In this document: piece by piece, positions 4,542 to 51,034 of the stretch | How the letters are laid out: each line of letters opens with the position of its first letter | How positions within the stretch are numbered: the stretch's first letter is position 1 | From: Pseudohongiella spirulinae | GTDB taxonomy: Bacteria; Pseudomonadota; Gammaproteobacteria; Pseudomonadales; Pseudohongiellaceae | Direction of reading: 5' to 3' | Length of the DNA stretch: 64,000 nt | Assembly: GCF_001444425.1 (NCBI RefSeq) | Contig: NZ_CP013189.1 | Location: 3,038,001-3,102,000 of the forward strand | Position numbers and translations under genes: made by a program | The notes under the pieces: model-generated | Seen by the model: the letters and a program-made list of their open reading frames with translations, nothing else | What the model was told of the DNA's origin: nothing | Database searches by the model: none

Positions 4542-5037
4542 AGAAGAATCGTTACCATTACTTGCGGGTTTCTACATTGATCAGTCCGCTAAACCTGATA
4601 TGCAGCTCTCCCCCCCAAAGTCAATACACTTGGGTCAACCCTCAGAGATGATACACTTTAGGCACACAATGTAAAGTACTGTGTGTCACAATAAACGCAG
4701 CAGATATAAATTTATTAGCACCCACGACAATCGATCATGACAACCGTGTGATTCATACCACCTCATGCACCAATACTCAAAGAGAAATTTTTGTAGCTAT
4801 GGCACATATAAAGCGAAAAACTTATTGACTGGACACTGAACTCCTTTCTTCTCACACCACACTCAGGGCTAAGCCACCGACTCAAGATCCTGAGCACGCG
4901 CCTTGCCTTTACAGGATATGTCCGCGACGGCCAGCGCCGTCAGATTAAATACTCCTCGCCCCGAAACAGGGGGTATTAACACGTGAGCCGACCTTTCCAG
5001 ACCAGGCAGCAAGACACACACGGGCGACAGGATGCCG
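4542..5037. other. Intergenic region, no supported gene
   Basis: About 500 bp lie between the receptor promoter and a malic-enzyme fragment. The part next to the receptor is AT-rich and probably holds its promoter. Near 4947-4978 there is an imperfect inverted repeat (AATAC and CCCC pairing with GGGG and GTATT). Short ORFs here show no family resemblance and no ribosome binding site. Confidence 0.5.
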
Positions 5038-5263
5038 CTACAATGCGACGAACCGATCAGCCAGGACATCAATAGCTTTTGCGCATGCCTGTTTCATTTC
5101 CATATCAGTCTGCGTGGCTCCGCAATCCAGCGCACCCCGGAAAATAAAGGGATCTCGTGGCATTTTTTGTGTAAGCGGGCCTATTAATACACTTGGGGCA
5201 GAGAGATACAGAAACACATCTGCATTGAGCAGCGCATCTTCAAGAGTCCGATCAGCAGATCAA
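5038..5263 (-). pseudogene. Malic enzyme remnant (C-terminal NAD-binding part, internally deleted)
   Basis: On the minus strand an open stretch without a start codon, preceded by an in-frame stop, encodes RTLEDALLNADVFLYLSAPS, then QKMPRDPFIF, directly joined to ALDCGATQTDMEMKQACAKA and a stop. These match three consecutive conserved blocks of NAD(P)-malic enzymes: the LEEAL-GADVFIGLSAPG block, the block around DPIIFA, and the late ALDVRATQINEEMK block. The segment between the last two, normally about 60-70 residues, is missing. No catalytic N-terminal domain is present nearby. It is a relic of a gene deleted between the receptor and paaE. Confidence 0.7.
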
Positions 5264-5274
5264 TAACGCGCCTA

Positions 5275-6372
5275 TCACACCTGATCAAAGTCAACGACCA
5301 CATGATCACTCACCGGATGTGATTGGCATGTCAGAATAACCCCTGCCGCCACCTCTTGCGCCGTTAGCGAGTGATTAAGATCCATCTCCACTTCGCCTTC
5401 CATCACACGCGCTTTACAGGTAGCACACACGCCGGCTTTACAGGAGAATGGCAAATCAGCCCCATTACGCATGGCACCATCAAGAATATTCTCGCCATCG
5501 GCTGACAGGTCAAACTGAATTGAACGACCACCCACTTTCACGTCAATTTTGCTTACTCGCCCACCGCTTCTTTTCGCCCGCTCATGATGCTTCGCGATCG
5601 CCGTTTTTGCGTCGTCAGGCGAGGAATAGAACAACTCATAATGGATGTTGTCTTCGTCAACACCGGCGTCACGCAGCCCCTTCGAGACTTCAGAAATCAT
5701 GGACTCAGGACCACACAAGAAGAACTCATCGGTACTCTCTATATCAATCAATTTCATTTTGTTCAGCTCACCGCCTTTTTTATTGTCAAGGCGCCCAAAC
5801 AGAACATCCGCATCCTGCTTCTCCCGACTGAGAATATTAAGCCAGTTGAGACGCGTCATATAACGGTTTTTCAGAAACCCAAGCTCTTCCTTGAACATAA
5901 CCGTTGCGGAGTTTCGATTGCCGTAGAGAAGCGTAACGGTGCTGTTGGGTTCTTGAGACAATATGCTTTTGACAATAGACAGTACAGGTGTGATGCCGCT
6001 GCCCGCGCAGACGCACATGTAGTTTTTCTCGTTATTGGCGTCCAATTGTGTGTAAAAATTCCCACCGGGGGGCAAGACATCAATGGTGTCACCGACCTTT
6101 AACTCAGTGTTCACAAAATTAGAAAAGATACCACCATCAATACGCTTGATGCCTACCTGCAATACACCGTCATCAACGCCCGAACAAATGGAATACGAAC
6201 GGCGATATTCCTCGCCTGCTATAGTCTTTTTGAGAGTAATGTATTGACCCTGGATAAATCGGAATATCTCCCTGAGATCATCAGGCACGTCAAAAGTAAT
6301 ACAAACGGCGCTGTCAGTTTCCGGCCTGATGTCAGAAATAGACAAAGGGTAAAACGTGTTGTTTTTCATCAT
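5275..6372 (-). CDS. paaE: 1,2-phenylacetyl-CoA epoxidase reductase subunit PaaE
   Basis: This is the reductase of the ring-epoxidising PaaABCE complex. It passes electrons from NADPH through FAD and a 2Fe-2S cluster to the diiron oxygenase PaaA. Of 365 residues, 1-100 form the FAD domain (RRSYSICS), about 105-235 the NAD(P) domain (GSGITPVLSI, FLCGPESMI), and 265-365 a plant-type ferredoxin domain with CKAGVCATCKARV and a final Cys in LTCQSHP. The terminal ferredoxin and the length are typical of PaaE. It sits about 8 kb from paaABCD and is separated from them by unrelated transcription units, whereas in most genomes it follows paaD. It begins MM, so either ATG could start. Confidence 0.9.
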   Translation of the reverse strand: MMKNNTFYPLSISDIRPETDSAVCITFDVPDDLREIFRFIQGQYITLKKTIAGEEYRRSYSICSGVDDGVLQVGIKRIDGGIFSNFVNTELKVGDTIDVLPPGGNFYTQLDANNEKNYMCVCAGSGITPVLSIVKSILSQEPNSTVTLLYGNRNSATVMFKEELGFLKNRYMTRLNWLNILSREKQDADVLFGRLDNKKGGELNKMKLIDIESTDEFFLCGPESMISEVSKGLRDAGVDEDNIHYELFYSSPDDAKTAIAKHHERAKRSGGRVSKIDVKVGGRSIQFDLSADGENILDGAMRNGADLPFSCKAGVCATCKARVMEGEVEMDLNHSLTAQEVAAGVILTCQSHPVSDHVVVDFDQV

Positions 6373-6497
6373 TGCTGCCTTTCAAATGCAATTTTAACCA
6401 TCGGACGATTTTTAACGCTGCACCCGGCTACTACCTTGTCAAAGACAGGGCCAGGCTGACCACTCAGTGAAATTTCGTTCTCCAGCACGGGTTTGAT

Positions 6498-7808
6498 TTA
6501 CACGAAGCGGATTACCAGATACGTCAAACCGACCGATACAAAGAAGATCATACCAATCCAGCTCAGCACTCGCATTACCGTACCAGGCTGAAGGGCCGCC
6601 GGTGTGTGCGAGGAAGTGATGAGGCGGAAGTTCAGATAGCCGTAAATGGGTGCAGAGAAAAAGGCCATGATCGTCACCACATCTATCAGACGCGTCAACG
6701 AACCAGCGAATGACATTATTACCAGCAGCGCTCCAGAAGCAACAAAACCCATCCACATCAGATAAAGTTTCTCAGGAGACTTCAGCTGTGGCGCGATCAG
6801 TCTACAACCTACCGCCATAGCACGTGAGTATCCGTCGATAACGGTCAAGGTTGTCGAATACATGGTCGCCAATGCTGCAATAGCAATAACAGGCCCCGCC
6901 CACGCACCCAGCAACTGAACATACACTCCCACCAACTGAGTAATGAAGCCACCACCGGATTCCTGCAAGACCATGCCGGTTCCGTGCATTCCAAGCGCAC
7001 CCAGACTAAGGAATACCAACGCCAACAAGGTGCTCAAACCGAAACCCACGTTAAAATCCACCCGACCATCTTTCAATGTTACTTTTTGGCCGGCCGCACG
7101 ACCCTTTGCCTGCACCCATAGCGACTGAAATACCGAGACCTCGATCGGCGCCGGCATCCAACCCATAAGCGCTATCAAGAAGGCCAGAGATGTAAGCGTC
7201 CACGGAGACGGACTGACAAAGTCAGGTGATGCGCCTGGCAGGCTGATCAGCGCAGCGACAAGCGCCACAGCCGTGGCAACAACAAGTACCGCCATAATGG
7301 GCTTCATGGCAAAATCCAGGCTCCGGTAATGGCCACGGAACAGAATCGCTATGCACGAAGTTATTATTACCAGGGCCCATACAACTGGCGGCAGAACAGC
7401 TCCGACAAAGTATTGAAGTATAGCTACGGTCACAAAGGTGACAGCCGCGGTTGATGCGATAGCAGAAACAATTGCCAGCAAAAGGAATGCATACAGAAAG
7501 CCGCGCCCCATTCGCTTGTAGCCATCCAGCAGGTTCTCACCCGTGGCAATTGCATAACGATGACCGTACTCAAAAAACGGGTATTTGAGCACGTTGATAA
7601 GCAGCACCAGCCCGATCAACTGAAAGCCGAAATCCGCACCAGCCCGAGTAGATTGCACTATATGCGAAGTACCAATGGCTGCACCCGCCATTAGCAAACC
7701 GGGACCAAGCACACGCAGAATATACTTCAACAGGCTCTTTTCAGTGGTCGGATTTTCTAAGGAATGACTATTCGAGCGGCCATCTACTTGCTGTGTTTCC
7801 TGATTCAT
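6498..7808 (-). CDS. Divergent Nramp-family transporter
   Basis: This 436-residue integral inner-membrane protein has about 11 hydrophobic helices and overall Nramp (SLC11-like) character: GPGLLMAGAAIGTSH in TM1 and LMGWMPAPIEVSVFQSLW in TM6. In classical Mn/Fe transporters TM1 carries the metal-binding DPGN motif and TM6 carries MPH. Here the DPGN position reads around AIGTSH, and MPH is replaced by MPAP. It therefore belongs to the Nramp-related branch without DPGN, and the cargo may not be Mn(II) or Fe(II). It lies between paaE and the TyrR-type regulator on the same strand, with 262 bp between its start and the regulator's stop, so it probably has its own promoter. Confidence 0.85.
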   Translation of the reverse strand: MNQETQQVDGRSNSHSLENPTTEKSLLKYILRVLGPGLLMAGAAIGTSHIVQSTRAGADFGFQLIGLVLLINVLKYPFFEYGHRYAIATGENLLDGYKRMGRGFLYAFLLLAIVSAIASTAAVTFVTVAILQYFVGAVLPPVVWALVIITSCIAILFRGHYRSLDFAMKPIMAVLVVATAVALVAALISLPGASPDFVSPSPWTLTSLAFLIALMGWMPAPIEVSVFQSLWVQAKGRAAGQKVTLKDGRVDFNVGFGLSTLLALVFLSLGALGMHGTGMVLQESGGGFITQLVGVYVQLLGAWAGPVIAIAALATMYSTTLTVIDGYSRAMAVGCRLIAPQLKSPEKLYLMWMGFVASGALLVIMSFAGSLTRLIDVVTIMAFFSAPIYGYLNFRLITSSHTPAALQPGTVMRVLSWIGMIFFVSVGLTYLVIRFV

Positions 7809-40210: not shown

Positions 40211-41371
40211 TTAGGGACTTATCACACCGTGTCTGTCCAGTAGGTCCAACACGACAGGCACCGGCAACTCTGCAAATGCATCTCCGTTCACACCCTGCAC
40301 CGCAGAAGCCTTGAACAATGCATTGTAAACGGCTTCCTCGGTGGCTTCCACAACAGCCTGGAACAATGGGGTCATCAAACCATTCGGCCAGTCTTCCACC
40401 AGGGTCGTCTGCTCGCGGCGAGCAGGCGTTCGACGCACACTGTTGGCGGTCGAAAATGCCAGAGCATAGTCACCCGAACCATTAGGCATGGCCGAACCGG
40501 TTCTGGCGATACCCAGGAATGCGCGACTTGCCAGGCGTTCAAGGTTACGGTCTGATAACGGCGCATCGGTGGCAATGATAATCATCACCGAACCGTCAGG
40601 GCTGGTCTGTGTCGCGCCACTTGCCACACGACTGCTTAGTGTCTCAGCGTTCACTGGCACCCCCATGATGTGCAGTTCACCGCCGTAGTTGGTCTGCACA
40701 AGCACACCGACTGTGAAACCACCGTCGTTCGCCGGTAATACACGCGAGCTGGTGCCAATGCCGCCTTTCCATCCAAAACTGACTGTACCCATACCCGCGC
40801 CGACACTGCCTTCAGCCACAGGCCCTGAGCTGGCGCTGTCAATGGCTGCAATGGCATGTTCAGGGCGCACCGCCCGCAGGCGAATATTGTTGATGCGCCC
40901 GTCATTGGTTTCGCCCACCACGGCATTAACTGAGCGGACGTCTTCATTGCCCACCTGCTGCAGGGTCCATTCAATGACGCCGGCGGCCGCCTCTGGCACT
41001 GACAGGGTATTGGTTAATACCACCGGTGTTTCCAGCTCCCCCAGTTCGATGACCTGAGTCGTGCCCATCATTTTCCCGAATCCATTGCCCTGGGCAAATC
41101 CGGCGGGCACCTTATCCTGAAAGATGTTGCCACCATGCGGTACGATCGCCGTCACACCAGTACGTACATTGCCGTCTTCTATTAATGACACATGGCCCAC
41201 TTTCACACCGGCCACATCCGTAATGGCATTGTGTTCTCCGGCAGGGTAAATACCGGGGGCAATGCCCACGTCGCGCGGGCGCGGGTCCGAGTCATTGGCC
41301 ATGACCGGTCCGCTGATCATCAGCGCGACTGACAAGGCTATGCTTCTCAACTCTCCGAATCGACGATTCAT
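40211..41371 (-). CDS. P1-family (S58, DmpA-like) aminopeptidase, exported
   Basis: This N-terminal-nucleophile peptidase is related to DmpA and beta-peptidyl aminopeptidases. It has 386 residues from the ATG at 41371 (GAGG 6 nt upstream) with a signal peptide ending at about VMA-ND. Family blocks are GIYPAGEHNAITDVAGVKVG, VGETNDGRINN, GGFTVGVLVQTNYGG, and the presumed self-cleavage site before Ser in PDGSVMIIIATDAPL. It starts 25 bp after the MBL hydrolase gene and is likely in one operon with it and the aldehyde dehydrogenase. Confidence 0.88.
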   Translation of the reverse strand: MNRRFGELRSIALSVALMISGPVMANDSDPRPRDVGIAPGIYPAGEHNAITDVAGVKVGHVSLIEDGNVRTGVTAIVPHGGNIFQDKVPAGFAQGNGFGKMMGTTQVIELGELETPVVLTNTLSVPEAAAGVIEWTLQQVGNEDVRSVNAVVGETNDGRINNIRLRAVRPEHAIAAIDSASSGPVAEGSVGAGMGTVSFGWKGGIGTSSRVLPANDGGFTVGVLVQTNYGGELHIMGVPVNAETLSSRVASGATQTSPDGSVMIIIATDAPLSDRNLERLASRAFLGIARTGSAMPNGSGDYALAFSTANSVRRTPARREQTTLVEDWPNGLMTPLFQAVVEATEEAVYNALFKASAVQGVNGDAFAELPVPVVLDLLDRHGVISP

Positions 41372-41396
41372 GACTATCCTCAGAAAAAATGGGCGC

Positions 41397-42536
41397 TTAA
41401 AACCAGTTGTGAAACTGTATTTCATCACTTCCCAAAGGCAAAGTCACGGCCAGGCCATCTCTGGCCACACGAACCGGCCCGTCAAACCTGGAAGGTGCAC
41501 CCCGCAGAAAGGCCGCTTCCAGGAACCGGTTTGGTATGGGTGGCACCACATGATTTATGACAAGCGCCCCGGCAGCGGCTGATTGAGCAAGTTCAGCGGC
41601 CTGTTCAGGGGTTGTATGATAATCCAGCACATCCTGCATGATGACCCCCAGATTCGGGTCACCCCGTTCAATCACATTTTGTTCGATAATTTTTAACAGT
41701 TGCGGCTGCAAACCCTCCATCACCAAAAGATCAGCGCCGCGGACAAACGCTTCGAAACCGGGTGACCGTGATACAATCAGGTCACCGCTAAAGACGACAG
41801 ACCGTCCCGCGTACTCAAAACGATAAGCGACTGCCGGATCAGCGGGATCATGGTCGACCCGCAAAGCCGACACCGACACTGAGTCATCGTCGTAAACGCT
41901 GATCGCTGACTCATTCTCAGGAGGCTCCGTTCGTGCCGGCAACTGAAAAGCCTGGGCGACAAGGCCCGCACCTGAAGAAGGCACAATCTGTTCACCATGG
42001 TGTGCTGGACGATAAATCTGATCCGGGCCATACGCAAGGTTGAATCCGGCCACAATCTGGTCTACACCCTGAGGGCCGATCACCGGCAAGGGCGACGGGT
42101 GCGCCCCGTTGACCCATCGCTGCAGTGCCAGATTACCGAGATCTGCGATATGATCGGAATGAAAATGAGTCAGAAATACTGCTCGAATCTGATCGGCTGG
42201 CAACCCCATTATGGTAATGTTTGAAGTTGATCCGCTTCCTGAATCAATCACAAAAAGTGCGTCTCCGGCGATCACCACTGCGCACGACTCGGCGCGTGTC
42301 GGATCCGGCAAAGGCGCACCTGTCCCACAAAATGCAACATGCAACCCAGGCTCAAGTGATGTCAATCGGTCAAACTGCGCCTGCCGAGATGCCTGTCGCT
42401 CGAACAGCCAATAACCCAGCTCAGCACGAAATAGTGTGACGACGCTGATCAGCAGGAAAGTAGCCACTGCGGCTGACAGAGCTATTACCGATAACAACCC
42501 TGAACCCCACGAAACTGTCGGGTTGCGGCCCATCAT
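41397..42536 (-). CDS. Membrane-anchored MBL-fold hydrolase
   Basis: This 379-residue protein has an N-terminal hydrophobic helix (about 12-36) that anchors or exports it. The metallo-beta-lactamase domain of RNase Z/arylsulfatase-like type contains FCGTGAPLPDPTRAESC, the intact metal motif THFHSDHIADL, SGDLIVS and NHVVPP. It overlaps the upstream aldehyde dehydrogenase gene by 4 nt. Export argues against a tRNA-processing role; the substrate is unknown. Confidence 0.82.
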   Translation of the reverse strand: MMGRNPTVSWGSGLLSVIALSAAVATFLLISVVTLFRAELGYWLFERQASRQAQFDRLTSLEPGLHVAFCGTGAPLPDPTRAESCAVVIAGDALFVIDSGSGSTSNITIMGLPADQIRAVFLTHFHSDHIADLGNLALQRWVNGAHPSPLPVIGPQGVDQIVAGFNLAYGPDQIYRPAHHGEQIVPSSGAGLVAQAFQLPARTEPPENESAISVYDDDSVSVSALRVDHDPADPAVAYRFEYAGRSVVFSGDLIVSRSPGFEAFVRGADLLVMEGLQPQLLKIIEQNVIERGDPNLGVIMQDVLDYHTTPEQAAELAQSAAAGALVINHVVPPIPNRFLEAAFLRGAPSRFDGPVRVARDGLAVTLPLGSDEIQFHNWF

Positions 42537-43996
42537 CGTTTAACCTGTATTTTAATGGTCTGCTCAGTTGCCTTGCCGTAGGGTGGCAGCATACCGCCCA
42601 GCTTACCTACATTGAGCCGCGTCTGCCGGTATACACTTTTGGCATGACTGAAGGTGCGGAAGCCATGCTCACCGTGATACGCCCCCATGCCGCTGGGTCC
42701 CACACCACCGAACGGCAATTCTTCCTGCATGATGTGCATGATCACATCGTTAATGCAGACACCTCCGGACGTCGTTCTGGATAGCACTGCACGCTCCTCA
42801 TGCCTGTCCTCGCCAAAATAGTAGACGGCGAGTGGTCGCGGATGGGCGTTGACATAATCAATCACCTCATCAAAATCCTTATAGCTGCGGATAGGCAGCA
42901 GCGGACCAAATATCTCTTCCTCCATAACCCGTGCGTTATCGGGAGGATTCACAATCAATACCGGCGGTAGTTTGCGCCGTTCATCAAGTGCAGCGGAGTC
43001 CTCATCAGCGGGTTTAAGGGCATGGATTCGCACACCCTGCTCCTCAACTTCCTGCACATAACTGCTCAGGCGCTGGTAGTGGCGCTCATTCACAATGGCG
43101 GTGTATTCCGGATTATCCAGAATAGAGGGATACATGGAACGTACTGCTTTTTCAGCTGCTTCGACGACCGACTCGAGCAGCTCTTCCGGCGCCAACAAAT
43201 AATCAGGCGCCAGACATATCTGCCCGGCATTCAGGGTTTTGCCGAGCATGATGCGTTCAATGCTGCGTTGAATATCTGCACTGCGCGACAGAATCACGGG
43301 TGACTTGCCACCCAGCTCCAGCGTCACCGGCACCAGATTCTGCGCAGCAGCTTTCATAATATGCCGGGCGACAGACGTCGCGCCCGTAAACAACAGATGG
43401 TCAAACGGCAGAGCCGAAAAAGCCTGACCGACTTCGGGCCCGCCGGTGAAAATTGCAACCTCTTTGGGATCCCAGGTCGCAGCAACCATTTCGGCCATCA
43501 CCTCCGAGGTAGCCGGCGTAAACTCCGAGGGTTTGATCATGGCGCGATTGCCGGCCGCCAGAATGCCGGCCAGTGGGCCAAAGGTCAGATTGACGGGGAA
43601 GTTCCAGGGCGAGATGACACCGACCACACCCAGCGGCTGGTACTCAATACGGGAGCGACCGCCCAGTAAATTGAACGGAAACGAACTGGCTTTACGCTGG
43701 GGCTTCATCCACTTGTGCAAATGCTTCCGGGCGTGTTTCAGTGGTGTCAACGATGCCGCAACATCAGTGAGCAGAGTGACTTCTCGGGAGCGGCAACTGA
43801 AGTCAGTATTCAGCGCATCAACCAATTTCCCCTGATACTTCAGCAGCACATCAATGCCGCGATCAATCCGGTCCCTGCGCGTTGCCGCACTCACCGCGCC
43901 TTCCTGCAGGAAATCCTTACGCTGCAGTTCGAGAGCGCCTTTGAGTTTTGATTCTAATTGTTCACCGTGTTCTTCCGCTGCCTGCATACTCATCAC
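42533..43996 (-). CDS. calB: Coniferyl aldehyde dehydrogenase
   Basis: This 487-residue member of the ALDH superfamily closely follows the CalB group: PLGVVGVISPWNFPVNLTFG, IKPSEFTPATSEVMAE, LFTGATSVARHIMKAAA, ELGGKSPVIL, catalytic Cys in NAGQICLAPDY, and EEIFGPLLPI. CalB oxidises coniferyl aldehyde to ferulate in lignin-phenol catabolism, but related enzymes accept other aldehydes. It heads the run calB-MBL hydrolase-P1 peptidase. Confidence 0.82.
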   Translation of the reverse strand: MMSMQAAEEHGEQLESKLKGALELQRKDFLQEGAVSAATRRDRIDRGIDVLLKYQGKLVDALNTDFSCRSREVTLLTDVAASLTPLKHARKHLHKWMKPQRKASSFPFNLLGGRSRIEYQPLGVVGVISPWNFPVNLTFGPLAGILAAGNRAMIKPSEFTPATSEVMAEMVAATWDPKEVAIFTGGPEVGQAFSALPFDHLLFTGATSVARHIMKAAAQNLVPVTLELGGKSPVILSRSADIQRSIERIMLGKTLNAGQICLAPDYLLAPEELLESVVEAAEKAVRSMYPSILDNPEYTAIVNERHYQRLSSYVQEVEEQGVRIHALKPADEDSAALDERRKLPPVLIVNPPDNARVMEEEIFGPLLPIRSYKDFDEVIDYVNAHPRPLAVYYFGEDRHEERAVLSRTTSGGVCINDVIMHIMQEELPFGGVGPSGMGAYHGEHGFRTFSHAKSVYRQTRLNVGKLGGMLPPYGKATEQTIKIQVKR

Positions 43997-44023: not shown

Positions 44024-45784
44024 TTAATGTATCGACCTGAACGGTCTCTTGAACAGGACATAAAAAAGAATCAGTAATGCGAGTACAACACCAAATACGG
44101 CAACCAGCAACATCATGCCGTACTTTGCAATGATCTGCCGGGTTGTCGCCTCGGCAATCATCTGTTGACCGGAGTAACCCGGCGGCATGGGCAGCACGCC
44201 GTATTCGGCCGTGTACAGTTCATACTCTCTCATCATGTCAGCAAACAACTCGGGCAATTCGGCACTCAGGTCGCGGGTTTCGCCTGGATCCTGCACGACA
44301 TTGTGCAGGCGCCAGACGCCGTCACCGTATAAGTCCAGATTACGTACCAGTTTGTAATCACCTTTGAATACCGCAGATTGCCCGGACGCCTCCAGAGACA
44401 CAGCATCCTCTGGACCATACACTGATTGCGCACGCCCTTGCAGAACATCAACAAGGCTGCGCCCGGTAAACGCCGGTCCTGAATCCAGCGCCTCGGCACC
44501 GGTCAGCTCCAGAATGGTGGGCACCAGGTCGGTAATAAAACTGAAAGGGTGTAATGCGCCCGAGGAAGGAATGCCCGGGCCGGACATGACCAATGGTACA
44601 CGCGTGCCACCCTCACTGGCGTGAAATTTGAATAACGACCCGCCCGCGCCCGCGGCGATGGCCCACTCGGGACCAATAGACGCATAGGAACCAGGCTCAC
44701 CCAATGTCTCTATGTCCTGGGAAAAACCTTCCAGCCATAACCACAAACGGAAGCCGGCATCTGCCGTTGGATGATTGTGCTCCGGCCCATTATCGGACAA
44801 CACCATAAATACCGTATTGTCGTAATCACCGCTGGTTTTCAGGTGATCAAGCAGTCGTCCGACATGGTAGTCCATGGCCTCCAGCATGCCCGCATTCACC
44901 TGCATGCTGCGTATGCTGCGTTCCCGCTCACGCGCAGACAGATCTTCCCAGCGCCGCAGTACGTCAGGCACCGGGCCGAGTTGCGCATCTGCCGGTATCA
45001 GTCCTCGCGCGATGGCTGCCTGATGCCGCCGCTGTCGAAGCACTTCCCAGCCTTCATCGTACACACCGTTATACCGGTCGATAAACTCGCGCGGCGCCTG
45101 CACAGGAATATGAATGGCCTGAAAACCGATCACAGAAAAAAATGGCTGACCGGCAGGTGTCTGATCAATGTACTCGATCGTTTTATCCACCAGAAACTCG
45201 GATGAATAAAAGTCATCCGGCAGGGTGCCTCGTTCAGCACCTTCAAACCAGTCGGCTTGTTCATACTGCGGCAAATAGGAACGCTGCGACCAGTTGTCCG
45301 CACCGGATGCATCCAGAATGAAACTGCGATCAAAACCACGCGCAACGGGCAAACTCTGTGGTGAATGGCCCAGGTGCCACTTGCCGGTAATGTAGCTGGC
45401 GTAACCAGCCGCCTGCAGGTGTTCAGCAATGGTTGGTACGTCAGGTGCCAGCTCACCCTGATAGGCCGGGTGTCCGGCATGCTCCTCCGGCCTGAGATGA
45501 TTCAAGGTCGCCAGCCCGGCACGGTGACTGGGCACACCGGTCATTAACATGGCGCGTGAGGGTGCGCAGGTGGGGCCGGCATGAAAGTTACTGAACATCA
45601 CGCCGCTTTCCGCCAGACTGTCGATGGCGGGCGTATTGATTTCACTGCCGTAGGCACCGAGATCGGTAAAGCCAGCGTCGTCTATGACGATGACGATCAC
45701 ATTGGGTTGTGCGTAAGAGGTCGCTGTAGAAATCACCAACAATGCGAGGACAATAACATGTGTGATATGGCGCTTAATTGACAT
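44024..45784 (-). CDS. Formylglycine-dependent sulfatase with C-terminal membrane anchor
   Basis: This alkaline-phosphatase-superfamily sulfatase has 586 residues from the ATG at 45784. A signal peptide ends near SYAQ, and NVIVIVIDDAGFTDLGAYG binds the metal. The C-A-P-S-R motif in GPTCAPSRAMLMTG carries the Cys (about 73) converted to formylglycine. Further blocks are GKWHLG and SDNGPEHNH. Unusually, the C-terminus has a transmembrane helix (MLLVAVFGVVLALLILFYVL) with a basic tail, so it is tethered to the inner membrane facing the periplasm. Its start overlaps the FGE gene end by 11 nt, indicating coupled translation. Confidence 0.92.
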   Translation of the reverse strand: MSIKRHITHVIVLALLVISTATSYAQPNVIVIVIDDAGFTDLGAYGSEINTPAIDSLAESGVMFSNFHAGPTCAPSRAMLMTGVPSHRAGLATLNHLRPEEHAGHPAYQGELAPDVPTIAEHLQAAGYASYITGKWHLGHSPQSLPVARGFDRSFILDASGADNWSQRSYLPQYEQADWFEGAERGTLPDDFYSSEFLVDKTIEYIDQTPAGQPFFSVIGFQAIHIPVQAPREFIDRYNGVYDEGWEVLRQRRHQAAIARGLIPADAQLGPVPDVLRRWEDLSARERERSIRSMQVNAGMLEAMDYHVGRLLDHLKTSGDYDNTVFMVLSDNGPEHNHPTADAGFRLWLWLEGFSQDIETLGEPGSYASIGPEWAIAAGAGGSLFKFHASEGGTRVPLVMSGPGIPSSGALHPFSFITDLVPTILELTGAEALDSGPAFTGRSLVDVLQGRAQSVYGPEDAVSLEASGQSAVFKGDYKLVRNLDLYGDGVWRLHNVVQDPGETRDLSAELPELFADMMREYELYTAEYGVLPMPPGYSGQQMIAEATTRQIIAKYGMMLLVAVFGVVLALLILFYVLFKRPFRSIH

Positions 45785-46676
45785 CACGTGCGCACCTGAA
45801 ACCGACATGCATTAACGAACTGTCTGGCGTGGAATGACTGCGCGCCGATACCCGATAGCCGTGGCAAACATTTTTGTCGCATAGAAATGAGCCGCCGCGC
45901 TGAACCTTGCTATTGCCATCAGACGGCGCATCATCGGCACCACTGCGCCCTTCGTAACCGCCATACCAGTCTGCCGTCCACTCCCAGACATTACCGGCCA
46001 TATCACTGAGCCCCGCCGGGGACAGGCCAAAATGACCCACCGGTGAGGTGGTTGCGAAGCCGTCTTCAACAGTATTGATCATCGGAAAGTCGCCATTCCA
46101 GACATTCGCCTGCCAGACCTTCGCCAGAGAATCGCCCTCTTTGAACAGCTCATCCCCAAAGGCGTAGGTAACATCGCCGTCGTGACCACTGCGCGCTGCA
46201 AACTCCCACTCCACCTCGCTGGGCAGGCGTTTGCCCTGTGCCTGGCAATAGGCAGTGGCATCATCCCAGGACACCTGAGTCACCGGGTGGTCCGCCAGCG
46301 CTTCCGAACCATCCGGGCCCAGCGGGTAGCGCCAATAAGCGCCGGGCTGCAGAAACCAGCGACCCGTACCAAACTGCATGACAGCGGAGTCGCCGAGCTG
46401 TTCGGCCGTGGTGATATACCCTGTGCCAGCGACAAACTCGGCAAATGCCGCGACGGTAACCGGCGTTTTGTCCAGCAGAAAGTCTGGCAGGGTTACAGCA
46501 AACACCGGGCGTTCATCTGCCAGCCCGTGCTCGGAGCCTATGACTGTATCGCCCCCTGGAATAAGCACCATATCTGCGGGCGATTCACCGGCACTAACAC
46601 TCATCGAGGGCAGCAGACACGCTGCCAGTAGCACAATGGCAGAGCGCCATCGAGGTATGACCGACCTGGGTGTCAT
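45774..46676 (-). CDS. Formylglycine-generating enzyme (SUMF1/FGE type) with export signal
   Basis: FGE oxidises the sulfatase active-site Cys to formylglycine using O2 and Cu(I). The 300-residue protein has the FGE-sulfatase fold: VTQVSWDDATAYCQAQGKRL, LPSEVEWEFAARSG, MAGNVWEWTADWYGG, and RGGSFLCDKNVCHGYRVSAR. The paired active-site cysteines are Cys266 and Cys271, at the same spacing as Cys336/Cys341 of human FGE, and SARSHSTPDSS follows. The N-terminus looks like a signal peptide, with a lipobox-like LAAC at Cys20 or signal-peptidase cleavage near VSA-GE. Export is unusual for bacterial FGEs. It is coupled to the sulfatase gene. Confidence 0.9.
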   Translation of the reverse strand: MTPRSVIPRWRSAIVLLAACLLPSMSVSAGESPADMVLIPGGDTVIGSEHGLADERPVFAVTLPDFLLDKTPVTVAAFAEFVAGTGYITTAEQLGDSAVMQFGTGRWFLQPGAYWRYPLGPDGSEALADHPVTQVSWDDATAYCQAQGKRLPSEVEWEFAARSGHDGDVTYAFGDELFKEGDSLAKVWQANVWNGDFPMINTVEDGFATTSPVGHFGLSPAGLSDMAGNVWEWTADWYGGYEGRSGADDAPSDGNSKVQRGGSFLCDKNVCHGYRVSARSHSTPDSSLMHVGFRCARDVN

Positions 46677-46787
46677 GGGCGTTTCCTCTCTTGAGTCCGC
46701 GTGTTATTATCCATTAGTATAATTAGGCCTTGATGGCTTGTCTACACGCAGACTATCACCCTTTCACGCCGGTACAGGAACGAACGT

Positions 46788-48134
46788 ATGAAAATGAAAC
46801 GATGGCTGCGCACGCGCGCTTCCGCTGTTCTGACCAGCCCACTGTACAGAGAGCTCCGGCGCACAAAGCAGGCTGTTACACGGCGGCTGACAGGCCGCTC
46901 CGCAGTTGTGCACTACTTTCACCAGGTGGATGACCCCTACTCTGACCTGGCCGTTCGGGCTCTGCCACATCTTTCCTCCCACTACGACATATGTGTCATC
47001 CCACACATCGTGCCCGCGCCGGACAAAGGCGCTGCACCGGAGCCAGAGCGGCTGATGCAATGGTCCTTGCGCGATGCAGCTGAGCTGGCAAGAGCGCTTG
47101 GGCAAAACCCGCACCCCTGGCAAACTGCGCCGGCGGCTGCGTTGCTCAGCCAGGCTCAGGCCGCGCTGGCCGGAATAAGCGATGTGCCGGAATTTGCCGC
47201 AGTGACAGCAAAAATCCGCGAAGCATTCAGTGGCGATGAAGTTGCTGTTCCAGACATCGCACGGACAGAAAACGGCAATGCCAAACACGCTTTAGAGGAG
47301 GGAGAAAGTCTGCGGCACAAGCTCGGACACTACCTGGGCGGCATGTATTATTTTGAAGGCGAGTGGTACTGGGGACTGGACAGGCTCCCCTACCTGGAAG
47401 AGCGACTGCAGCCACTGGCAAAGGTGGCAAACCTGCAACCGTTTGTGCGCAGGCTGGAAGCCTCTGTCACGCCCACTGCAGACGCCGCTGCGCTGGCCGC
47501 CGGCCATCAGCCAAAGCAGGCAACAACAAACACAAACCGCCCAAGGCTCGACCTGTACTTTTCATTTCGCAGTCCGTATAGCTGGATCGCACTGCCGCGC
47601 GTGTTTGAGCTCGCCCGCACTTATAATGCTGAGCTGCACCTGCGTTTTGTCTTACCCATGGTGATGCGCGGGTTGCCAATTCCCGAGTCCAAACGGCTGT
47701 ATATTGTCACGGACACCAAGCGCGAAGCCGAACGTGTCGGGCTGCCTTTCGGCCTGATTGCCGACCCGGTCGGAAAACCCACCGAGCGCGGCCTGGCGGT
47801 GCTGCATCACGCCATACAACTCGGCAAGGGTGAGGCGTTTGCCTTGTCATTTATGCGTGGAGTTTTTGCCGAGGGCATCAATGCCCGCAGCGACACAGGA
47901 CTACTCCGGCTGTGCGAACGCGTCGGCATCAGCGAAACACAAATGCAGTCTGCACTGGCCGACAATACTTGGCGCGCCGTGGCCGAAGCCAATCGGGAAG
48001 AGATGTTTACGCTGGGTATCTGGGGTGTGCCGGCCTTTCGGGTTAACGGCGGCACAGCACACTGGGGGCAGGACCGTCTGTGGCTGCTGGAACAGCAGCT
48101 GGCGGCCTGCCAAAAATCGGCCATGCCGTCATGA
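46788..48134 (+). CDS. Tandem DsbA-like / HCCA-isomerase-fold protein
   Basis: This 448-residue protein has two thioredoxin-like DsbA-family domains related to 2-hydroxychromene-2-carboxylate isomerases and kappa-class glutathione transferases. The first begins VVHYFHQVDDPYSDLAVRAL (about 40-225). The second begins LDLYFSFRSPYSWIALPRVF (about 255-440), with the catalytic-Ser-type SPYS and the late GIWGVPAFRVNGGTAHWGQD. Neither has a CxxC motif, so it is not a disulfide oxidase. A basic N-terminal stretch precedes domain 1, without a clear signal peptide. It diverges from the FGE gene; the function is unknown. Confidence 0.8.
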   Translation: MKMKRWLRTRASAVLTSPLYRELRRTKQAVTRRLTGRSAVVHYFHQVDDPYSDLAVRALPHLSSHYDICVIPHIVPAPDKGAAPEPERLMQWSLRDAAELARALGQNPHPWQTAPAAALLSQAQAALAGISDVPEFAAVTAKIREAFSGDEVAVPDIARTENGNAKHALEEGESLRHKLGHYLGGMYYFEGEWYWGLDRLPYLEERLQPLAKVANLQPFVRRLEASVTPTADAAALAAGHQPKQATTNTNRPRLDLYFSFRSPYSWIALPRVFELARTYNAELHLRFVLPMVMRGLPIPESKRLYIVTDTKREAERVGLPFGLIADPVGKPTERGLAVLHHAIQLGKGEAFALSFMRGVFAEGINARSDTGLLRLCERVGISETQMQSALADNTWRAVAEANREEMFTLGIWGVPAFRVNGGTAHWGQDRLWLLEQQLAACQKSAMPS

Positions 48135-49363: not shown

Positions 49364-51034
49364 ATGGTATCGGCCGGACGACGATGGCTTAAGGTGACAA
49401 TTGGTTTGGTACTGGCGCTGCCGCTGGTCGCCTGGCTCACAGTCGATCGCTGGATACTCTACCTGCCCGGTCTGCTGATTGATCTGCGCACACCCACCGG
49501 CCCCAACCAGCCTGTGCATTGGCGGCCCGGCCCTGACACACCCCGCAACAGCGATCAGCCGAATATCATTTTAATCGTTGCCGACGACCTGGGCTGGAAT
49601 GACATCACGTTTTACGGGGGCGGCGTCGCTGGCGGCACGGTGCCCACGCCGCATATCGACAGCATTGCCCATAACGGTGTCGCGCTGAACCAGGCCATGT
49701 CGGCCAGCGCCATTTGCGCACCATCACGTGCCGCCTTGCTCACCGGACGCTACCCCACCCGCTTTGGTTTTGAATTCACACCGCTGCCCAACGGCATGGC
49801 CAGTATCACCACCCGCCTGGACCGCAGCATTCAGGCGGACTTCCGTCGGCCTTTGATCAGTCACCTGGACCAACCCGGCATTTATCAGGCTGACTTTGAC
49901 AGCATGGGCATGCCCGGCAGTGAAATCACCATTGCCGAGCTGTTAAAGACCCAGGGGTACAAAACAGTACACATTGGCAAATGGCATCTGGGCAGCACGA
50001 ATGGCTCGGAGCCGACGGCGCAGGGGTTTGATGAAAGCCTGAATCTGGCCGGATTACTGTACCTGCCGGTGGATCATCCGGATGCTGTGAACGCGCGTCA
50101 GGATTTTGATCCGATTGACCGCTTCTTCTGGTCAGTCGGTCGTTACTCCATGAATTACAATGAAGGGCCTCGTTTTGAAGCCGATGGATACCTGACCGAC
50201 TACCTGACACGGGAGGCTATCAAGGTTATTGAGACCAACAGGAATCAGCCCTTCTTTTTGTACCTGGCACACTGGGCACCACATTCTCCCCTGCAGGCGC
50301 TCAAGTCAGACTACGATGCACTGACACATATCGAGGATCATACGCTGCGAACCTATGCTGCCATGATCAAGGCGCTGGACCGCGGCGTGGGCGAGGTGCT
50401 CGATGCGCTTGAGCAAAATGGCCTGGACGATAACACCATCGTCATATTTACCTCAGACAACGGCGGCGCGCACTACCTGGGGCTGCCGGACATCAACCTG
50501 CCGTATCGCGGCTGGAAAACCACGTTTTTTGGCGGCGGCATTCGTGTTCCGCTGTTCATGCAATGGCCAGCCGGTATTGAACCCGGCAGTCAATTCGATC
50601 CCTTCACCCATCACACCGATCTGCTGCCGACGCTGGCTGATATGGCGGGCACATCGGCACCCAGTGATCGTTTGATTGATGGTGTGAATCTGATGCCGCA
50701 TCTGCGCGGCGAAAATCCCGCGCCACCCCATGACACCCTGTTCTGGCGCAGCGGTCATTATCAGGTGGTGATTTCCGGAGGCTGGAAATTGCAGCAGACC
50801 GACCGGCCAGATGAGGTGTGGCTGTTCCATCTGGATGCCGACCCTACTGAACAAGATAATCTGGCCTCGCAGCACCCCGACAAGGTTGCTGAATTGCAGG
50901 CATTACTGCTGCAGCACAATAACGAACTGCCGCCACCGATGTGGCCATCCGTGGTGGAAATGCCCGTCACCATCGACAAACCACTGGGCCAGCCTGAAAC
51001 ACCGGAAGACGAACATATCTACTGGCCAAATTAA
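49364..51034 (+). CDS. Formylglycine-dependent sulfatase
   Basis: This 556-residue sulfatase has an N-terminal membrane helix or uncleaved signal (about 9-38). The metal-binding NIILIVADDLGWNDITFYGG is followed by the formylglycine motif AICAPSRAALLTGRYPTRFG with Cys118, then HIGKWHLGS and FTSDNGG. It differs from the neighbouring sulfatase at 44024 in lacking a C-terminal anchor. It would need FGE maturation. The haloalkane dehalogenase gene follows after 14 bp, so they form an operon. Confidence 0.92.
   Translation: MVSAGRRWLKVTIGLVLALPLVAWLTVDRWILYLPGLLIDLRTPTGPNQPVHWRPGPDTPRNSDQPNIILIVADDLGWNDITFYGGGVAGGTVPTPHIDSIAHNGVALNQAMSASAICAPSRAALLTGRYPTRFGFEFTPLPNGMASITTRLDRSIQADFRRPLISHLDQPGIYQADFDSMGMPGSEITIAELLKTQGYKTVHIGKWHLGSTNGSEPTAQGFDESLNLAGLLYLPVDHPDAVNARQDFDPIDRFFWSVGRYSMNYNEGPRFEADGYLTDYLTREAIKVIETNRNQPFFLYLAHWAPHSPLQALKSDYDALTHIEDHTLRTYAAMIKALDRGVGEVLDALEQNGLDDNTIVIFTSDNGGAHYLGLPDINLPYRGWKTTFFGGGIRVPLFMQWPAGIEPGSQFDPFTHHTDLLPTLADMAGTSAPSDRLIDGVNLMPHLRGENPAPPHDTLFWRSGHYQVVISGGWKLQQTDRPDEVWLFHLDADPTEQDNLASQHPDKVAELQALLLQHNNELPPPMWPSVVEMPVTIDKPLGQPETPEDEHIYWPN

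Follow-up and report, generated by a model that had tools for sequence, protein, structure and literature searches.

A predicted exported formylglycine-generating enzyme encoded in overlap with a putatively membrane-anchored sulfatase in Pseudohongiella spirulinae

The genome of Pseudohongiella spirulinae is a single contig of 3.35 Mb with a listed completeness of 100%. A 64,000 nt stretch of it (NZ_CP013189.1, positions 3,038,001 to 3,102,000; here the window) contains a gene for a formylglycine-generating enzyme (FGE) with a predicted export signal, which overlaps the gene for a sulfatase, here named sulfatase A (Table 1). The overlap is 35 nt between the longest open reading frames and 11 nt when counted from the downstream ATG of the sulfatase gene at 45784. 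The FGE matched PF03781 with an E-value of 3.6e-67 over residues 34-297 (profile positions 3-255 of 255), which is the whole mature protein, and matched the solved FGEs 6muj, 2q17 and human 1y1e with E-values of 1e-58 to 5e-56. Sulfatase A has a predicted signal peptide, only one cysteine, which lies in its CAPSR motif, and a hydrophobic C-terminal stretch, MMLLVAVFGVVLALLILFYVLF-KR; L028-L032 likewise have a hydrophobic stretch at the C-terminus. A first-pass annotation of the window had described the gene overlap, a C-terminal membrane anchor on the sulfatase and two conserved copper-binding cysteines in the FGE; the overlap and the cysteines were confirmed, and the hydrophobic stretch is consistent with the anchor.

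The cysteines of the window FGE are at positions 20, 144, 266, 271 and 295, and C266 and C271, in a C-x4-C arrangement, align with human C336 and C341. This arrangement is kept in all 18 rows of the clade that includes the window FGE (L010-L018, L079-L086 and L090; two rows are identical), as are G331, G332, S333, C336, C341, R345 and R349 (human numbering), and the window protein retains the remaining near-invariant FGE residues that we listed. The position of human His337, which is variable among bacterial FGEs, is Glu or Asp in 18/18 clade rows (Asp in the window FGE), and human FGE has a longer loop after the TAE motif than the window FGE. An AlphaFold2 model of the FGE core (17 rows) had a mean pLDDT of 56.8, too poor for use.

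The N-terminus of the FGE reads MTPRSVIPRWR, then SAIVLLAACLLPSMSVSA, then G. The stretch before the start (GAGGAAACGCCC) is conserved, its last base excepted, in six of the nine genus orthologs (L010-L015), where the start is ATG or GTG; L016-L018 differ in sequence 5' of the FGE start. The signal-peptide sequence itself diverges among the orthologs, and all nine have a hydrophobic, signal-like N-terminus, L018 being counted as exported only by the second version of our signal rule, via a downstream TTG. Matches to the anti-Shine-Dalgarno sequence are at most 3 nt for the internal start codons 15, 25 and 37. The equivalent of Met36 is invariant in the 17 FGE rows of our first alignment, so it is no marker of a start. 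We take a predicted Sec-type export signal to lie at the true FGE start. The earlier annotation had offered either a signal peptide or a lipobox-like N-terminus, and the former is retained: the LAAC at C20 is, by reading, absent from the other genus orthologs, which makes a type I signal peptide, and processing by signal peptidase I, the likelier assignment. Relatives of this FGE in the Rhodothermales group are lipoproteins by our own rule.

Five proteins encoded in the P. spirulinae genome matched PF03781, and only the window FGE has the C-x4-C pattern. By reading, two others (L002 and L003) are FGE-fold proteins that have a signal peptide or anchor and lack the cysteines, L004 is an FGE-domain protein with an end resembling a methyltransferase, and L005 a short match in phage-like surroundings. 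The genome encodes three PF00884 proteins, all type I sulfatases, with the motifs CTPSR, CAPSR and CAPSR. Reading of their sequences suggests an export element in each: a lipobox-like signal in the CTPSR protein, a signal peptide and C-terminal anchor in sulfatase A, and an N-terminal anchor in sulfatase B, which is also encoded in the window. The best match in this genome to anSME (TIGR03942), a radical SAM enzyme that also makes sulfatase formylglycine, scored 19 bits against a cut-off of 349.

An ortholog of the window FGE was found in nine of 15 genomes of the genus. PF00884 proteins were present in all nine, versus one of the six others (G007); the hypergeometric chance of this co-occurrence is approximately 0.002 by hand calculation, ignoring kinship and the incompleteness of two genomes (G004, 85%; G006, 72%). 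Among the 30 FGE-domain places read of the 54 listed for the genus, eight have C-x4-C and all are orthologs of the window FGE. No anSME above the cut-off was found in any of the 15 genomes (highest score 125 bits, in G002). In 9/9 orthologs the FGE stop and a start codon overlap, and the FGE frame is overlapped by a sulfatase frame in 8/9, the contig of the ninth (L013) ending shortly past the FGE. Sulfatase A is the overlapping partner in L010-L015 (with no sulfatase frame available in L013), and the different sulfatase B takes its place in L016-L018. As the overlap is repeated in eight of nine orthologs, it is not due to chance. Sulfatase A is found elsewhere, without an FGE, in G014, and in seven Rhodothermales-group loci the sulfatase comes first, then the FGE. 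At L061 (G003), two FGE-domain matches lie in one 1815-aa open frame in which no C-x4-C was seen.

For a wider survey, genomes were searched with profile A1 (E-value up to 1e-60) and the best five or six candidates per genome were scored. Catalytic FGEs were found in 19/369 gammaproteobacterial and 60/398 Pseudomonadota genomes, P. spirulinae being counted in both. The FGE frames from this survey were pooled with those from 80 named loci and the nine genus loci; of 176, seven without the C-x4-C pattern were dropped and 169 kept. The 80 named loci are the best matches to the exported FGE of the window and hence a biased sample. By our own N-terminal rule, to which the terms exported and cytoplasmic refer here, 101 of the 169 FGEs are exported and 68 cytoplasmic, in a sample partly chosen by similarity to the window FGE. 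This rule gave signal-like calls for 19/1593 internal starts and 16/338 fake cores within the FGE domain. A first, stricter version placed L018, L130 and five Rhodothermales-group FGEs (L082, L083, L085, L086 and L090) in the cytoplasm. L215, exported by the first rule, is cytoplasmic by the final one, which searches less upstream sequence, and is counted against the match described below. L242 received a weak exported call, has a cytoplasmic-type motif, and no sulfatase was found beside it; this call is probably a false positive.

Among the named loci that were kept, the exported share was 23/23 in Bacteroidota, 5/5 in Rhodothermota, 4/4 in Cyanobacteriota, 3/3 in Verrucomicrobiota, 5/6 in Acidobacteriota, 2/4 in Planctomycetota, 6/21 in Pseudomonadota, 0/2 in Actinomycetota and 0/2 in Thermomicrobiota. 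The 72 other Pseudomonadota genomes from the survey include 33 with exported FGEs only (one, G625, doubtful), 37 with cytoplasmic FGEs only and two with both. The first-pass annotation took the cytoplasm to be the usual site of action of bacterial FGEs, a premise that these counts do not bear out, and an apparent signal at the N-terminus is not rare among bacterial FGEs. The C218-C365 disulfide of human FGE was considered as a marker of exported FGEs and rejected: the position of Cys218 is Cys in 30/101 exported and 8/68 cytoplasmic FGEs, and that of Cys365 in 51/101 and 52/68, so the disulfide is no usable marker.

The location of an FGE was then compared with the export route of its neighbouring sulfatase, using the 94 FGEs that have a sulfatase with an intact 5' part within 1.5 kb. 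Sulfatases beside exported FGEs were Sec-type in 52 of 53 cases, the remaining one (L080) being doubtfully Tat-like, and none was signal-less. Beside the 41 cytoplasmic FGEs there were 11 Sec-type, 13 Tat-type and 17 signal-less sulfatases (Fisher 2.5e-14). The contrast persisted, as Sec:other beside exported versus cytoplasmic FGEs, with one pair per 60% cluster (20:1 versus 2:13, p 5.8e-7), with one pair per 50% cluster (10:0 versus 1:4, p 0.004) and with the genus of the window removed (44:1 versus 11:30, p 6e-13). Three versions of the Tat rule gave 52:1 and 12:29, 53:0 and 16:25 (with D or E after RR wrongly barred), and 52:1 and 11:30 (the version used), and a variant of the pairing with five hand corrections gave 52:1 and 10:31. 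A tree built from the neighbouring sulfatases shows 16 changes of route, and among 11 supported independent pairs an average of six agree with the match, none disagree and five show no difference (median p 0.03). In 37/53 sulfatases beside exported FGEs versus 6/41 beside cytoplasmic ones, the part that starts with the catalytic domain has only one cysteine; we do not use this as evidence because export alone favours few cysteines. At L080, in Sinimarinibacterium flocculans, the sulfatase next to the FGE appears as two adjacent open frames (4818-5880 and 5883-7170).

The match was also examined genome-wide, in 29 of the 33 exported-only and 31 of the 37 cytoplasmic-only genomes. All 85 places in the former and 70 of 139 in the latter were examined, and 25 and 18, respectively, were dropped for lack of a Cys motif or a model hit. 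Sec-type sulfatases made up 44/60 of the Cys-type sulfatases in exported-only genomes versus 22/52 in cytoplasmic-only genomes (p 0.001), a weaker match than that among neighbouring genes.

The Sec pathway carries unfolded proteins and the Tat pathway folded ones, and FGE acts on an unfolded substrate. Many bacterial copper enzymes reside in the periplasm. Because the only C-x4-C FGE of P. spirulinae is of the exported type, its three sulfatases have export signals, no anSME was found above the cut-off, and FGE location pairs with sulfatase route, extracytoplasmic maturation fits the observations best. We conclude that the window probably encodes a genuine FGE whose site of action is outside the cytoplasm and which matures the Sec-exported sulfatase A. 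The overlapping genes would yield an FGE and a sulfatase that both carry Sec-type signals and are translocated unfolded across the inner membrane. Once in the periplasm, the FGE would fold, bind copper at its C-x4-C site and oxidise the single cysteine of CAPSR to formylglycine, before or during folding of the sulfatase, which would be held on the membrane by its C-terminal anchor. As the only C-x4-C FGE found in the genome, the same enzyme probably serves the two other sulfatases. Periplasmic maturation had been suggested in the first-pass annotation; genome content and the pairing of location with route lend it support; the accompanying premise of a usually cytoplasmic FGE is not supported. 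The same arrangement appears to exist in many bacteria, with cytoplasmic FGEs lying mostly beside apparently Tat-type and signal-less sulfatases.

Several observations weigh against this conclusion. The position of Tyr340 is Val (11) or Trp (7) in 18/18 clade rows, Val in the window FGE, which is a change at the copper site. Mutation of S333, H337 or Y340 alters FGE activity (PMC4505483; this and the other papers are cited for the parts available to us). Given the changes at Tyr340 and His337 and the shorter loop after TAE, activity in this clade is to be shown, not assumed. Both the signal rule and the Tat rule are our own and were revised after the data had been seen. As the FGE tree contains only three changes of location, it cannot serve to test the correlation independently, and the reverse pairing on the sulfatase tree (eight pairs, 4.7 as expected, none opposite) reached a median p of only 0.06. 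The periplasm is oxidising. FGE turnover has been assayed with a reductant (PMC4505483). In the genus, G007 has a CTPSR sulfatase (L027), with no FGE match at an E-value of 1e-30 and no anSME above the cut-off, and the two of its three FGE-domain places that were read lack C-x4-C (G007 loci L027, L037, L055 and L071). Finally, of the 60 Cys-type sulfatases in the exported-only genomes, our rule found no Sec signal in 16, two being Tat-type and 14 signal-less (L297, L301, L306, L313, L315, L318, L323, L357, L391, L392, L397, L401, L402 and L408). These 16 would therefore be matured by something else or work unmodified, and at least L306 and L408 may have signals that the rule missed. By reading, the 16 include what we take to be choline-sulfatase-like and phosphonate-hydrolase-like sequences. 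When the 13 genomes with these exceptions were searched with relaxed settings and every candidate was scored, no additional FGE came up; anSME was not searched for there. Other routes are possible, since unmodified choline sulfatase still turns over and E. coli forms formylglycine in Cys-type sulfatases by unidentified machinery (PMC6189696).

That E. coli activity also bears on a reading in which both proteins are exported and maturation is cytoplasmic, either because the FGE acts before its export or because an unidentified third system is responsible. The signal-less Cys-type sulfatases of exported-only genomes would suit this explanation, but it leaves the pairing unaccounted for, with signal-less sulfatases in 0/53 cases beside exported FGEs and Tat-type or signal-less ones in 30/41 beside cytoplasmic FGEs, and we consider it improbable. 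A cytoplasmic FGE that modifies the sulfatase before export would also result if the true start were internal, at codon 25 or 36. Prokaryotic FGE has been placed in the cytosol, and eukaryotic FGE in the endoplasmic reticulum (PMC4505483). Met36 stands directly before the FGE domain and codon 36 is preceded by GGTGA, a 5 nt anti-Shine-Dalgarno match 14-18 nt away, which is one base longer than the GAGG of codon 1. However, six orthologs conserve the sequence leading up to codon 1, which is well spaced from their ATG or GTG, the hydrophobic N-terminus is found in 9/9, the invariant Met36 equivalent is no start marker, and fake cores within the FGE domain look signal-like in only 16/338 cases. 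An internal start past the hydrophobic stretch, which the first-pass annotation had named as a finding that would overturn it, is not favoured, and we regard it as very improbable.

The window FGE could instead be an exported non-catalyst, a structural or scaffold protein of FGE fold like PorK/GldK or OCTIN. Cysteine-less FGE-fold proteins with a signal or anchor do occur, in P. spirulinae itself (L002 and L003) and elsewhere (PMC5915273, PMC12421860), and the loss of Tyr340 from the clade would be in keeping with such a role. The protein nevertheless retains both cysteines and S333 along with the near-invariant FGE columns, three arrangements link the gene to CxPSR sulfatases, and neither a second C-x4-C FGE nor an anSME scoring above the cut-off was found in the genome. 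A scaffold role is thus unlikely, and a catalytic, extracytoplasmic FGE remains our preferred interpretation.

The genes beyond the FGE and sulfatase A are included in Table 1. The aldehyde dehydrogenase gene is likely to be in the same operon as sulfatase A. The divergent gene for a protein with a DSBA-like domain (46788-48134) also adjoins the FGE gene in L011-L015, and neighbours sulfatase A in L028, a locus in which we found no FGE; we claim no role for it.

Table 1. Features of the FGE-sulfatase region, in window positions
Feature	Position	Strand	Remarks
FGE (PF03781)	45774-46676	-	300 aa; open reading frame; predicted exported
Ribosome-binding site and spacer, GAGGAAACGCCC	46677-46688	-	directly 5' of FGE start
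FGE signal peptide, codons 1-29	46590-46676	-	own N-terminal rule and signal-like, divergent N-termini of orthologs; likely cleavage after SVSA
C266-x4-C271 copper site, within GGSFLCDKNVC	45864-45881	-	aligned to human C336/C341; Val at Tyr340 position
Sulfatase A (PF00884)	44024-45808	-	594 aa; longest open reading frame; likely true start 45784
CAPSR formylglycine motif of sulfatase A, C81	45554-45568	-	sequence
C-terminal membrane anchor of sulfatase A, residues 565-586	44051-44116	-	predicted by reading
Aldehyde dehydrogenase gene	42533-43996	-	starts 27 nt past sulfatase A
Metallo-beta-lactamase-fold hydrolase	41397-42536	-	4 nt overlap with aldehyde dehydrogenase gene
Peptidase S58 family protein	40211-41428	-	longest open reading frame shares 32 nt with hydrolase gene
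Divergent gene, C-terminal DSBA-like domain	46788-48134	+	profile match
Sulfatase B (PF00884, CAPSR at C118), N-terminal signal anchor	49364-51034	+	orthologs overlap FGE gene in L016-L018

In sum, a known enzyme family is seen here in a location variant that is widespread. With somewhat less assurance than for the window FGE itself, we favour two modes of bacterial FGE action: a cytoplasmic one for cytoplasmic sulfatases and for those exported folded by Tat, and an extracytoplasmic one for those exported unfolded by Sec, the second about as common as the first in the sampled Pseudomonadota, the rule in the sampled Bacteroidota and, in bacteria, an independent analogue of the maturation seen in the endoplasmic reticulum. 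If so, FGE location could be read from the gene and would predict the export route of the neighbouring sulfatase, and formylglycine formation outside the cytoplasm would not be peculiar to eukaryotes. Copper-dependent oxidation would take place in the periplasm, which raises the question of the driving reductant there, and heterologous production of active Sec-type sulfatases may be best with an exported FGE. The cytosolic location given for bacterial FGE (PMC4505483) would be valid for only part of bacteria. Two studies predict most sulfatases to be exported and count FGEs, with no statement on FGE location in the parts available to us (PMC6388578, PMC10880615). Among the papers listed in our searches of mostly open-access literature, none reports an exported catalytic bacterial FGE in its title or opening abstract lines; a prior mention is possible.

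PvdO is an exported FGE-fold protein without catalytic cysteines. PorK/GldK and OCTIN are others (PMC5915273, PMC12421860), and all of these have fold and export in common with the window FGE, in which alone the catalytic cysteines are found. The cytosolic FGEs of Streptomyces coelicolor (2q17/6muj) and Thermomonospora curvata (6s07) are homologous to the window FGE over the whole length and are like it in C-x4-C, S333 and sulfatase substrates; the window FGE differs in its predicted export signal, in Val at the Tyr340 position and in the shorter loop after TAE. In a quick tree with one eukaryote and an undefined root, human FGE (SUMF1) grouped with those of S. coelicolor and T. curvata and six cytoplasmic-type rows, and not with the window clade (SH-aLRT 99). 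We make no claim that the exported state shares its descent with the FGE of the endoplasmic reticulum, and the bacterial counterpart proposed in the first-pass annotation holds as analogy and not as descent. Both positions of the human C218-C365 disulfide (PMC4505483) are Cys in the window FGE (C144 and C295). Like human FGE (1y1e), the P. spirulinae enzyme would be an extracytoplasmic FGE that acts on translocated sulfatases.

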